A DNA stretch of 54,482 bases from Rheinheimera salexigens (GTDB taxonomy: Bacteria > Pseudomonadota > Gammaproteobacteria > Enterobacterales > Alteromonadaceae). Below are positions 9,985 to 13,325 of this stretch, piece by piece; position 1 is the first letter of the stretch, and every line of letters begins with the position of its first letter. The notes under the pieces were generated by a model. It searched no databases, was not told where the DNA came from, and saw only the letters and a list, made by a program, of their open reading frames with translations. Made by a program: the position numbers and the translations under genes. The stretch lies in assembly GCF_001752395.1 (NCBI RefSeq), contig NZ_MKEK01000001.1:3384442-3438923 (forward strand), read 5' to 3'.

Positions 9985-10054
9985 ATGGGGTCAGTACACA
10001 TTAATAGAGTGTTAAATTTTTATCCTACATTTTGTTAATGCACACTGACCCCAT
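9985..10054. repeat. 70-bp imperfect inverted repeat (REP/MITE-like)
   Basis: The left arm ATGGGGTCAGTACACATTAA (9985-10004) and right arm (10035-10054) are inverted copies differing only in three central bases, with a 30-bp AT-rich core. ATGGGGTCAG-type arms are characteristic of small dispersed elements associated with REP-type (Y1) transposases in Proteobacteria. It lies exactly between two convergent genes and could also terminate transcription. Half a copy (ATGGGGTC) occurs at about 8776. Confidence 0.6.
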
Positions 10055-10069
10055 TTTATGCTTTGCACA

Positions 10070-10924
10070 TTAGTTTTGCTGCTTTTGACGCAGCTGCTCT
10101 AGGTAAGTATATAAATGCTCTGTAAAAAAACCATGCATTAAAAAGCGTTGACCTAAATTCCACGGCCCCACTAAGTAATGCGGGTATTTGTTATAAGCCA
10201 TCTCTGTAAGGTTAGGGTTACCGACTAAGTCACCAATACGCTTTGCTATTGATTGATCTAGGTTAAAACCATTAATCGCATCGCGGTACTCTTCCCTAGT
10301 GAGTAAAAAGCAAAATAAACACATAAATAGTGCATGGGCGCTTTCAAAGTCGAGCCATTGGCTGCGCTTTTTGGTTAACTGAAACTGTGCCATATCAATG
10401 GGTTGCCAATGCTGCCAATTTAACTCTGTCGGCTTTAAGGGCTGAGCGGGATGATGCCAGCTGCCTAGCTCGGCGAATAGTCTAAATAACTCCTGATCAT
10501 GATCAACAAAACTAGCCTGCTGCATCTCTGCAATACTTTTTGGATACAGCTGTACCGGCGTAAAATCATGGTTGCTATCCTGCGGGCTATTGGCTGCTAG
10601 GAAATTAAGGATATTCGATTCAGTGGCGTAATGACGCAAAATAAGTAAGCTGGCTTCTTGGCTAACAAAGTGTGTGCAAAACCAGCAAATTAACTTTTGT
10701 AAGCTAGCATGAGCGCTAAACTGCGGTAACGGCAAGCGTTTAAAAAACCAAATAATATGTAGCAATACTGCAAAGATAAACTGCAGCAGTGGCCTAATCC
10801 CCCAGCGTAACGGGTTTTGTAAATCTTTAAGCCATAAATCTAACGCGGCTTGATCAATAGGCAGTGAGTTATCGTTAGCTATCGCTTGTAAATAAGCGCT
10901 AGGCTTGGCAGATTTAGTACTCAT
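10070..10924 (-). CDS. Unknown protein, last gene of DarB-type biosynthetic operon
   Basis: 284 residues, not recognised. A hydrophobic segment at about 48-63 (QFIFAVLLHIIWFF) suggests membrane association; the rest is soluble with many Trp and His. The motif DAINGFNLDQSIAKRIGDLVGNPNLTEMAYNKYPHYLVGPW lies in the C-terminal part and is probably the conserved core. The start overlaps the end of the diiron protein gene by 11 bp, implying translational coupling and a shared pathway. Both the membrane-bound role and a tailoring or transfer function are inference. Confidence 0.65.
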   Translation of the reverse strand: MSTKSAKPSAYLQAIANDNSLPIDQAALDLWLKDLQNPLRWGIRPLLQFIFAVLLHIIWFFKRLPLPQFSAHASLQKLICWFCTHFVSQEASLLILRHYATESNILNFLAANSPQDSNHDFTPVQLYPKSIAEMQQASFVDHDQELFRLFAELGSWHHPAQPLKPTELNWQHWQPIDMAQFQLTKKRSQWLDFESAHALFMCLFCFLLTREEYRDAINGFNLDQSIAKRIGDLVGNPNLTEMAYNKYPHYLVGPWNLGQRFLMHGFFTEHLYTYLEQLRQKQQN

Positions 10925-11600
10925 TATCCACCTCTTCTAATTGCAAACAATACAATCTAGCGGTAACCCGAGCCGTGCGCACTATTGCCTTAAGTTGCTC
11001 TGGGCTTTGACATAAACGATCAATTAACTGATATAACTTTTGCATATGGTCATCATCATTGGCACCGTGATAACGCATAAATTTGGTATAACTGCCATCA
11101 CCACTGGTGCTACTGTCTATCTGCTCGGCCCAGCTTGAGGCCATTTTCTGGCCTAAACCTTCAATAATCCACATCGCACCCAGTAAATCGACAGGGTTAG
11201 TTTGTCCGGCACGATACATTAAAAAGCCATGCAAGGCTTCAGTGCCAATATTACGGCCAGCTTGCTGAATAGTAGCCAATTCACCTCCCGCGGCGACAAA
11301 ATCTCGTTCGAGCATTTCATAATCACGATGCTCTTCGCGGGCGTGACCAATAATAACCGAACGTACATCACTAAAATCGCGATCAAAACTGGACGCACAA
11401 CGGCTAATCCAACGCGAGCCTTCAATAACCTGTTGCCGCCAATTCAGTAATAATTGGCAGTAATCCGCCTTGCTAAATTGTCCTCGTTCTAAGCGTTGAA
11501 TTAACGGTACTCGTCCTAGCTGACGCTCAAATTCAAACCATACACGCATTAAGGCTTGTAAACATTGCTGGCCTTGGGGGGTTAAAACCTGTTCCGACAT
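10914..11600 (-). CDS. TenA/haem-oxygenase-like diiron protein (HDO-type)
   Basis: 228 residues, all-helical. The C-terminal half contains H178-x3-D182-x2-H185 (HGANDDDH), the ligand pattern of haem-oxygenase-like diiron oxidases such as CADD. E147 (WIIEGLG), 31 residues before it, and the REEHRDYE segment (E89, E90, H91) are candidate remaining ligands; the first-helix spacing is not identical to CADD. HDO enzymes include UndA (alkene formation from fatty acids), SznF and BesC. Here it sits between a DarB-like ketosynthase and an unknown protein, so oxidation of an acyl-derived product is a reasonable inference. Confidence 0.75.
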   Translation of the reverse strand: MSEQVLTPQGQQCLQALMRVWFEFERQLGRVPLIQRLERGQFSKADYCQLLLNWRQQVIEGSRWISRCASSFDRDFSDVRSVIIGHAREEHRDYEMLERDFVAAGGELATIQQAGRNIGTEALHGFLMYRAGQTNPVDLLGAMWIIEGLGQKMASSWAEQIDSSTSGDGSYTKFMRYHGANDDDHMQKLYQLIDRLCQSPEQLKAIVRTARVTARLYCLQLEEVDNEY

Positions 11601-11628
11601 AGTTATTCCTTCCTAGCTTTTGCTGCCA

Positions 11629-12756
11629 TTAGTTGGCTTCTACCACCGTTAGTTGCATATAGGCATTATTAAACCGACCGCTCTCTGGCACCATACATAA
11701 AATAGTATCGCCGGTGTTATAGACTTGGGTGCGCCGAAACTCATCCAGCATAATAAAAATAGAGGCACAGCCAGTATTACCGCGGCTGTACAGGTTGCTA
11801 TACCACTTGTCTTCAGCAATGCCGACACCGGCGCGCTGCATCATGTCGAAAATTTTGCCACGAAAATAATGCGATGAATAATGACACAACACATGATCAA
11901 CCTTTTCTGGTTGCACCCGACCTTCGCTAATCAGTCGCAAGTAACCATCTACACCCAGCTTGACGATATTCTCTAATAACCGAACATCTTGGCGAATAAG
12001 CAAAGCGCCAGCGGCTTCTGCTGCTGCGTAAGTGGGGTAATCCTGCCAACTTTTGGCTTCGCCATTACTCTGCTGGATGCTAGAGTCCGTGGGATAACCG
12101 ACACTCATACATACTGGGTAAGCATCAGCATGAGAAAAGCTGCGGATCCAATCAATACGAAAACACTGGCCTCGTAGCTGTTGTTCTAATAACAGCGCGC
12201 CAGCCCCATCGGATAACATCCAACGTAGAAACTCAGCGTTAAAATCAACCTCAGCACCAGCTGCCTCATAACGGCTGGCTTTAAATAAACGTGATGTCAG
12301 CTCACTTGCTACAACCAAAGCATTGCTCTGCTCACCGGCTTTTAAATTGGTGTAGGCCGCTTTTAGCGCCATCATACTGCTGGAGCAAATACCATGACTG
12401 CTATGCAGCTCGATATTACTTAAGCCCAATTCTGCTTGCACCATAGAGCCAAAACCTGGCAATACAATATCACCTTGGCTAGTAGCAGCACTGAGCATAT
12501 TAATCTGGCGTTTACCTAAAAAACTAGTGCTTAAACAATGCTCTGCCGCCCGCGCAGCCATAGCGCTGTTAGAAATTAAAGTATTATGATTAGCATCCAT
12601 AGCGTAATGCCGAGTATGAATGCCATTAGACTGCAAAATGCGCCGTTTTAAGCGGCTCGGTTTACCATGCACCAAGCCCAATAACGGCTCTATTTGCTCA
12701 TTGTTAATGGCTGGACCGGGCAAAAAGCTACCGCTACTGGTAATAAATACATTCAT
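11629..12756 (-). CDS. StlD/DarB-family beta-ketosynthase (KAS III-like)
   Basis: 375 residues. The N terminus MNVFITSSGSFLPGPAINNE followed by LLGLVHGKPS matches the StlD/DarB branch of KAS III-like synthases, which condense acyl thioesters into cyclohexanedione precursors of dialkylresorcinols. A complete thiolase-fold triad is visible: C124 (HGICSSS), H292 (CHYSSH) and N327 (RGNTGCAS). The usual partner aromatase DarA is not in the window. It overlaps the upstream His-rich membrane protein gene by 4 bp and is followed 28 bp later by the diiron protein gene. Product unknown. Confidence 0.85.
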   Translation of the reverse strand: MNVFITSSGSFLPGPAINNEQIEPLLGLVHGKPSRLKRRILQSNGIHTRHYAMDANHNTLISNSAMAARAAEHCLSTSFLGKRQINMLSAATSQGDIVLPGFGSMVQAELGLSNIELHSSHGICSSSMMALKAAYTNLKAGEQSNALVVASELTSRLFKASRYEAAGAEVDFNAEFLRWMLSDGAGALLLEQQLRGQCFRIDWIRSFSHADAYPVCMSVGYPTDSSIQQSNGEAKSWQDYPTYAAAEAAGALLIRQDVRLLENIVKLGVDGYLRLISEGRVQPEKVDHVLCHYSSHYFRGKIFDMMQRAGVGIAEDKWYSNLYSRGNTGCASIFIMLDEFRRTQVYNTGDTILCMVPESGRFNNAYMQLTVVEAN

Positions 12757-13325
12757 GCCACTGCGGCCTTATTTTTTAATGCCACCACTAAGCAGCGTAA
12801 GTTCTCTTCCATATAGGGCAGTACACACACTACCGCCATAAAGCCAAGATAATACGGCAGATAACCCTCACCACCATGGGCATAAGGCATACGAATAAAG
12901 CTAAATTCGCCTTGCCAATCTAGCGTCAGCAGCTTAATAAATACTGGGTAGTTAATCACCACTATTAGCAGCAACATATACAAGGGTAACGTGGCCAAAT
13001 AGTTATGGGCATGCATTTCCCATACACTAATATGCCGCTTCGGCGCAGCATAATGCACGTCATAATGCGCAACAGCTTCGTGCGCCAGCCAAGCTGCCGT
13101 GCAAATTAATAAAATAAGCACATTAACCTTGAATAACAGACACAACAAAATAGGTACTGCCATTTGCAGTCCCATTAAGGAGTGAATAAGGGATTCTTTT
13201 AAACCGGAGGTGTGTTCAATACGGGTGGCGCGATGGCAGCACCAGTCGACAAAGCCGGCAATACCCCATAACGGTAAATACACATATAACATTAATTGAA
13301 TTAGCAGCTGATTAGTTTGCAACAC
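12753..13325 (-). CDS. His-rich polytopic membrane protein (fatty-acid-hydroxylase-like)
   Basis: 190 residues with about four membrane helices. His and acidic residues cluster on cytoplasmic-side loops: D27-x3-H31, E37-H38, H48, H82-x4-H87-x3-H91, H98, and E103-x-H105-x-H107. This resembles the multi-His metal site of membrane diiron hydroxylases/desaturases, although the spacing does not fit the canonical HX3H/HX2HH exactly. It is the first gene of the four-gene operon, and its stop overlaps the ketosynthase ATG (ATGA). Lipid oxidation is inferred. Confidence 0.65.
   Translation of the reverse strand: MLQTNQLLIQLMLYVYLPLWGIAGFVDWCCHRATRIEHTSGLKESLIHSLMGLQMAVPILLCLLFKVNVLILLICTAAWLAHEAVAHYDVHYAAPKRHISVWEMHAHNYLATLPLYMLLLIVVINYPVFIKLLTLDWQGEFSFIRMPYAHGGEGYLPYYLGFMAVVCVLPYMEENLRCLVVALKNKAAVA

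Follow-up and report, generated by a model that had tools for sequence, protein, structure and literature searches.

We analysed a stretch of 54,482 nucleotides (the window) from the 3.44-Mb genome of Rheinheimera salexigens (contig NZ_MKEK01000001.1, positions 3,384,442 to 3,438,923). Four genes at positions 10070-13325 of the window formed a conserved operon, called the cassette below, which contained a ketosynthase (KS) and a candidate haem-oxygenase-like dimetal oxidase (HDO). The four genes were as follows.

13325-12753, minus strand: MEM, a His-rich membrane protein of 190 amino acids (aa) with a GTG start (open reading frame call)
12756-11629, minus strand: KS, a StlD/DarB-related ketosynthase of 375 aa (open reading frame, NCBIfam, PDB matches, trees)
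11600-10914, minus strand: HDO, a haem-oxygenase-like dimetal oxidase candidate of 228 aa (open reading frame, PF14518, alignments)
10924-10070, minus strand: DUF6999 (PF22523) protein of 284 aa, mostly helical (open reading frame, Pfam)

MEM and KS overlapped by 4 bases, KS and HDO were separated by 28 bases, and HDO and DUF6999 overlapped by 11 bases. These open reading frame coordinates agreed with an earlier note on this DNA, made from the sequence alone, which had described four overlapping or nearly touching genes here.

Public genome contigs were scanned with HDO, and the best 80 loci of 200 relatives were kept. These loci carried the closest HDOs, so the sample was biased to near kin. 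All four genes were present in 77 of the 80 loci, and the other three (L107, L118 and L125) ended inside the unit because they were cut by contig ends. The strand and the gene order were the same in all 77 complete loci. Since these loci came from other records, the grouping of the four genes was not due to chance. Within the genus, DUF6999 was found in 22 of 31 genomes, with the window genome counted, and the genus relatives fetched at length carried the complete set in 18 of 18 cases. The co-occurrence of the four genes, for which a neighbourhood search had been proposed, was thus borne out. The bacterial hosts included Halomonas, Nitrincola, Alkalimonas, Endozoicomonas, Shewanella, Colwellia, Vibrio rumoiensis, Pseudoalteromonas and Thiomicrorhabdus. 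The earlier note had proposed a search across Gammaproteobacteria. The cassette was found there, but this range was too narrow, because archaea of Candidatus Poseidoniales (Marine Group II) were also among the hosts of the best 80 loci. In one Pseudoalteromonas, the cassette was carried by a replicon of 801 kb that is listed as a plasmid, and MEM scored 340 bits there. Split genes were seen in two draft genomes, DUF6999 in Rheinheimera G009 (L046:5676-6530) and HDO in genus member G004 (L034:6017-6701), as might be expected of a decaying remnant. However, the KS triad was intact and most metal ligands of HDO were kept, as described below. We gave practically no weight to a remnant or a chance grouping, and this reading was rejected because it was refuted by the conservation of the cassette. 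In Sessilibacter corallicola (L116:4480-5873), about 830 bases were observed between MEM and KS.

The KS had been assigned to the StlD/DarB family, and this was supported in part. The best NCBIfam model was the StlD/DarB model NF005293 with 366 bits, whereas general KASIII models scored 92 bits. The match to StlD in the PDB had E=3.4e-69 and 237 bits, compared to 457 bits for the genome's own DarB. However, the score of 366 bits was below the cut-off of 450. The DarB exception model NF053539 gave 331 bits, which was also below its cut-off of 550. This model is narrow, as the genome's own DarB, which passed NF005293 with 585 bits, reached only 475 bits on it. The catalytic triad Cys124-His292-Asn327 was intact. 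It was kept in 27/27 cassette KSs and 7/7 other aligned KSs, and a Cys-His-Asn triad was present in all 43 KSs of a second alignment. At residue 291, beside the catalytic His, 21 of 23 HDO-linked KSs had Cys and 18 of 20 others had Pro.

The bias of the HDO-led search was avoided by a KS-first search, in which 274 Gammaproteobacteria genomes were compared with the StlD/DarB model. Twenty matches exceeded 300 bits. Sixteen of them passed 450 bits and four fell short (the window, G518, G462 and G137), and the remaining matches scored about 61 bits or less, like general KASIII enzymes. All four KSs between 300 and 450 bits adjoined HDO and DUF6999. Neither HDO nor DUF6999 was found beside any of the 16 DarBs over the cut-off, within about 1.5 kb on each side or up to the contig end; for the genome's own DarB, the neighbourhood was covered over the 19-kb stretch L028. 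Two trees were built, with 61 and 46 KS rows, and StlD was absent from both. In the first tree, 28 cassette KSs formed one group (99/98), which was joined by eight fused-type rows, two of them from one genome (98/95), and, with lower support, by the KS of L142 (95/75). The 16 DarBs clustered separately (99/100), and the KS of G518 had no firm placement (82/36). In the second tree, the DarBs were grouped with two Bacteroidota KSs, with the cassette KS outside (99/99). A Streptomyces KS followed by a DarA-like gene joined the HDO-linked group weakly (84/75). By these sequence comparisons, the cassette KS is related to StlD/DarB but lies outside the DarB clade. The cassette shared with DarA/DarB and StlD this family relationship, the intact triad and a presumed acyl + acyl condensation. 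In contrast, its KS was accompanied by HDO and DUF6999 instead of DarA, and the four-gene unit contained no acyl carrier protein (ACP) gene. A plasmid of Streptomyces also carried a cluster (L189:6718-14364) that encoded ACPs, a member of the same KS superfamily, a DarA-like protein, a FAD monooxygenase, FabF and a P450.

HDO matched PF14518 with E=8.6e-8 and 32.6 bits (cut-off 28.9). When its profile was compared with the PDB, the closest match was 3dde (6e-9), and MboA was matched with E=0.003. We aligned 36 KS-linked HDOs (27 from cassettes, seven from loci L136-L142, and those of G518 and G462) together with three plasmid HDOs. E60, H86, E90, D93, E121, E147, H178, D182 and H185 were invariant in all 36 KS-linked HDOs, and H91 was replaced by Gln in six of them. 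The helix H178-x3-D182-x2-H185, which had been claimed as the metal site, and Glu147 of the middle helix were thus fully kept. However, the other metal-binding helix was non-canonical, because E90-x2-D93 was found in place of E-x2-H, with an extra His (H86) four residues before the Glu, which might take over as a ligand. In the three plasmid HDOs outside the KS-linked set, E-x2-H was present and H86 was absent. According to part of a 2026 review (PMC13108848), the metal ligands of most HDOs are believed to be three His and three carboxylates. The ligands of MboA are given in an excerpt of PMC13185094 as Glu86, His89, Glu143, His172, Asp176 and His181. In the profile alignment, Glu86, His89, Glu143 and His181 of MboA corresponded to E90, D93, E147 and H185, and His172 and Asp176 landed two positions off H178 and D182. 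This mapping took the PDB chain numbering as 25 ahead of that of the paper, as judged from the matching motif. HDO kept most of the ligand set and may bind two metals and activate O2. Compared with UndA, MboA, SznF and CADD, the cassette HDO had the PF14518 match, the H-x3-D-x2-H helix and Glu147 in common. It differed from them in the E-x2-D motif, the extra invariant H86 and E60, and its position beside or fused to a ketosynthase. Three distant HDO relatives were observed in another recurrent cluster, with 'thermostable hemolysin', an AMP-binding protein and an SDR oxidoreductase (L186:693-4526, L187:828-4508, L188:690-4225).

A further sample of 398 Pseudomonadota genomes contained nine with DUF6999. 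The four-gene form was found in two of them, the window genome and one relative, G418 (L143). In the other seven (L136-L142), KS adjoined DUF6999, and in six of these HDO was the C-terminal domain of KS. The fused proteins had 626-655 aa, and the profiles of the cassette proteins gave 383-434 bits for the KS part and 155-167 bits for the HDO part. In L142, KS and HDO were separate genes with DUF6999 adjoining. Two more loci with DUF6999 came from the KS search, one fused (G462) and one separate (G518). In total, KS and HDO were fused in seven of the nine non-cassette loci, and DUF6999 was adjacent in all nine. No MEM was detected in the sequence retrieved around these nine loci. A profile search of L136-L142 found hydroxylase and desaturase genes just upstream in five of the seven loci, a desaturase alone in L141 and neither in L142. 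Pfam confirmed the desaturase and hydroxylase genes tested in L136, L140 and L141. Genes of lipid metabolism were also located near fused or core clusters, namely an acyl-ACP-phospholipid acyltransferase, ClsB (cardiolipin synthase) and, overlapping DUF6999 at its end, a diacylglycerol kinase. Their positions were as follows.

L142:5697-9098, L136:4478-5635 and L141:9171-9557: lipid-gene neighbours beside fused or core clusters

MEM matched no model of Pfam or NCBIfam at E up to 1. Its AlphaFold2 model (pLDDT 95.5) was a helical bundle, in which four long helices were accompanied by one short helix and by a long helix at the C-terminus. H31, E37, E44, H48, H82, E83, H87, D89, E103, H105 and H107 were invariant in 27 sequences. 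They were located near the end of helix 1, the start of helix 2, the end of helix 3 and the start of helix 4, and in the model they would probably lie at one membrane face. Such an arrangement would resemble that of membrane diiron enzymes. The membrane enzymes of PF00487 and PF04116 fill the place of MEM in fused-type clusters, and MEM is comparable to them in that helix ends carry invariant His and Glu. However, they had no profile similarity to MEM, as no relation to the clusters' own desaturases (PF00487) or hydroxylases (PF04116) was detected with hhalign (probabilities 1.0% and 0.2%). The earlier note had proposed two iron enzymes in the operon. This was a fair description of HDO, although its ligand set is altered; in the case of MEM, it was inferred from conserved His and Glu, with no profile match. 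Among the 704 database relatives of MEM, many were named 'diguanylate cyclase' by NCBI (e.g. P0123, P0130, P0131). This appeared to be a misannotation, as such a domain was not detected in the MEM of the window.

The 284-residue protein had been described as unknown. It belonged to DUF6999 (PF22523), a family that Pfam names without a function, with E=2.4e-90 and 302.8 bits (cut-off 27) over residues 7-279, which is the full length. The protein had 1018 database relatives, and its predicted structure was mostly helical (pLDDT 88.1). D18, R40, R97, H98, H142, D143, D192, N218, D223, R260, H264 and E269 were kept in 27/27 cassette members and 7/7 others. From this pattern, DUF6999 could be an enzyme.

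The genome carried a second locus related to aryl-polyene and dialkylresorcinol (flexirubin-like) clusters.

L028:6955-10496, contig C1 at about 354-357.5 kb: aryl-polyene-like locus with DarB, a DarA candidate and DarH (NCBIfam, position)

DarH scored 483 bits (cut-off 300). The DarA candidate, a protein of 305 aa beside the true DarB, matched no NCBIfam or Pfam model, and its presumed identity as DarA rests on its position. This locus was separate from the cassette, near 355 kb compared to 3396 kb on C1, and was surrounded by ACP-like and acyltransferase genes, whereas there were none in the cassette. The claim that DarA is absent was correct for the surroundings of the cassette. However, the genome does have one homologue of the DarA candidate elsewhere, next to the true DarB; no homologue was found in the window, and the only match in the genome was the L028 locus itself. 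Homologues were present in six of 41 genomes, which comprised four of the 22 genus members with the cassette, another member of the genus that lacked it, and one fused-type genome. The DarA candidate is thus dispensable for the cassette, since 18 of these 22 carriers had no homologue of it.

In the phylum of the Poseidoniales, DUF6999 was found in nine of 145 genomes, with the centre genome counted, and KS and HDO adjoined it in all nine. The standard ACP model matched none of six archaeal carrier genomes, and it matched two of two bacterial carriers. Acyl-CoA dehydrogenases were present in all six archaeal genomes. The archaeal records are metagenome-type assemblies whose completeness is not known, but a six-fold absence of ACP is unlikely to come from missing data. 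With no ACP match and with acyl-CoA dehydrogenases, these genomes suggested acyl-CoA as the donor in archaea. A desaturase gene directly followed the archaeal cassette in L121, L123 and L126. By profile, a desaturase was found in four of the nine archaeal DUF6999 genomes, and this profile misses the L121 type.

The results above show the gene order, conservation, fusions, co-occurrence and conserved residues of the cassette, and its chemistry, with substrates, products and metals, was inferred. DarB has been reported to form 4-carboxy-2,5-dialkylcyclohexane-1,3-diones (PMC5515871, in part), and DarA is listed as DAR-aromatase in a section of PMC3949708. We tentatively favoured the reading, at somewhat below an even chance, that the cassette is a biosynthetic unit for a fatty-acyl-derived, probably membrane-resident product, in which KS forms a ring acid and HDO decarboxylates this acid oxidatively, giving a resorcinol-type lipid. 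KS would join a β-ketoacyl thioester and an enoyl thioester in a DarB-like manner to a 4-carboxy-2,5-dialkylcyclohexane-1,3-dione. The donor would likely be acyl-CoA, judging from the KS family, the intact triad and the archaeal hosts. HDO would then work directly on the KS product, which would explain the KS-HDO fusions. To turn the ring acid into a 2,5-dialkylresorcinol, CO2 must be lost from C4 and hydrogen at C5. The likeliest reaction would be of the UndA type, in which hydrogen is abstracted at the position β to the ring carboxylate, CO2 leaves and a new C=C bond forms. Tautomerisation would give the 2,5-dialkylresorcinol or a close analogue. UndA converts a free fatty acid to a 1-alkene and CO2, as described in part of PMC13108848. 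As this is the open-chain equivalent of the decarboxylation of the ring acid, the KS-fused HDO would fit as a DarA substitute, doing the job of DarA though unrelated to it. MEM might further oxidise the lipid or position it in the membrane, and in most fused-type clusters the fatty-acid hydroxylase and desaturase might act in its role. DUF6999 would be a constant partner in the pathway. In favour of this reading were the conserved gene order, the KS-HDO fusions, the outcome of the KS-first search, the invariant KS triad, the few carriers in the genus with a homologue of the DarA candidate, the ACP and acyl-CoA dehydrogenase results in archaea, the lipid-enzyme genes near fused/core and archaeal loci and, weakly, the tree position of the Streptomyces KS.

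A fuller version of this reading was considered unlikely to hold in all its parts. One as yet undescribed lipid pathway would then be shared by Marine Group II archaea and, within Pseudomonadota, by marine Gammaproteobacteria and other members. The HDO with the new ligands (E-x2-D and the extra His) would be a decarboxylating aromatase that replaces DarA and is often fused to KS. The archaea would make a ring lipid from acyl-CoA with no ACP, helped by MEM, as a new small membrane metalloprotein, and by DUF6999.

Several observations weighed against the resorcinol reading. KS was under both StlD/DarB cut-offs, so that its ability to cyclise is not assured. A single clade of the 23 HDO-linked KSs was not rejected (p-AU 0.339), which gives no proof of it. 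The ligand set of HDO departed from the canonical one, and its reaction may differ from that of UndA. The closest PDB match, 3dde, has no known function, and MboA, the sole functionally known PDB match listed, is an acetylenase and not a decarboxylase. In the fused-type genome G429, a KS-HDO fusion and a homologue of the DarA candidate were both present. The neighbouring lipid enzymes belonged to fused/core and archaeal loci, and none to the window. In addition, the proposed pathway leaves DUF6999 without explanation.

Some of these points would fit other products. KS could make the DarB-type ring acid while HDO hydroxylates or rearranges it to a hydroxyquinone-like or otherwise ring-modified lipid instead of a resorcinol. 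A new reaction is plausible because the ligand helix was altered in 36/36 HDOs, and the known HDO repertoire includes N-oxygenation, desaturation and rearrangements (PMC13108848, in part). Hydroxylase and desaturase genes accompanied five of the seven loci L136-L142. However, we saw no precedent for such a reaction on rings of this kind, and an aromatic product would need a second, undefined aromatising step. We regarded this outcome as rather unlikely. It was distinctly improbable, in our judgement, that KS is a plain Claisen enzyme with no cyclisation, followed by decarboxylation or desaturation of an open-chain β-keto acid by HDO to a ketone, enone or hydrocarbon. This would be consistent with the KS scores under the cut-offs, with Cys instead of Pro at residue 291 and with the free fatty acids used as substrates by UndA (PMC13108848, in part). 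However, KS scored best with StlD/DarB, far over KASIII, and its tree neighbours were DarB and the KS beside a DarA-like gene. We thought a role outside natural-product formation very improbable, in which the cassette would alter membrane lipids or fatty acids that are already present, for instance in homeostasis. The high conservation across long distances and the presence of ClsB, diacylglycerol kinase or the acyltransferase near some fused/core loci, along with desaturases or hydroxylases, could be read in this way. However, the neighbouring genes varied between loci, and we know of no DarB-like KS that takes part in phospholipid remodelling.

As judged by paper titles in the openly licensed literature, and as far as found, the four-gene unit has not been described. 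The enzyme types are known, and the combination, the fusion, the ligand signature and the spread over bacteria and archaea appear to be new. The presence of the cassette in uncultured Marine Group II archaea points to an acyl-derived product there, and to our knowledge such lipids are not known from these archaea. If the resorcinol reading is correct, DUF6999, MEM and the HDO group with the unusual ligand signature would gain a role in their genomic context and a reaction that can be tested. Ketosynthase products would be added to the substrate range of HDOs, whose substrates are predominantly fatty and amino acids according to part of the 2026 review (PMC13108848).

In the window, the cassette was flanked by a DUF2891 gene and a gamma-glutamyltranspeptidase gene, both on the opposite strand. 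An inverted repeat with arms TGGGGTCAGT was located at 9986-10053, between the cassette and the DUF2891 gene. One arm had three near matches in the window compared to 0.29 expected, and the paired form occurred once in the whole genome, at this position.

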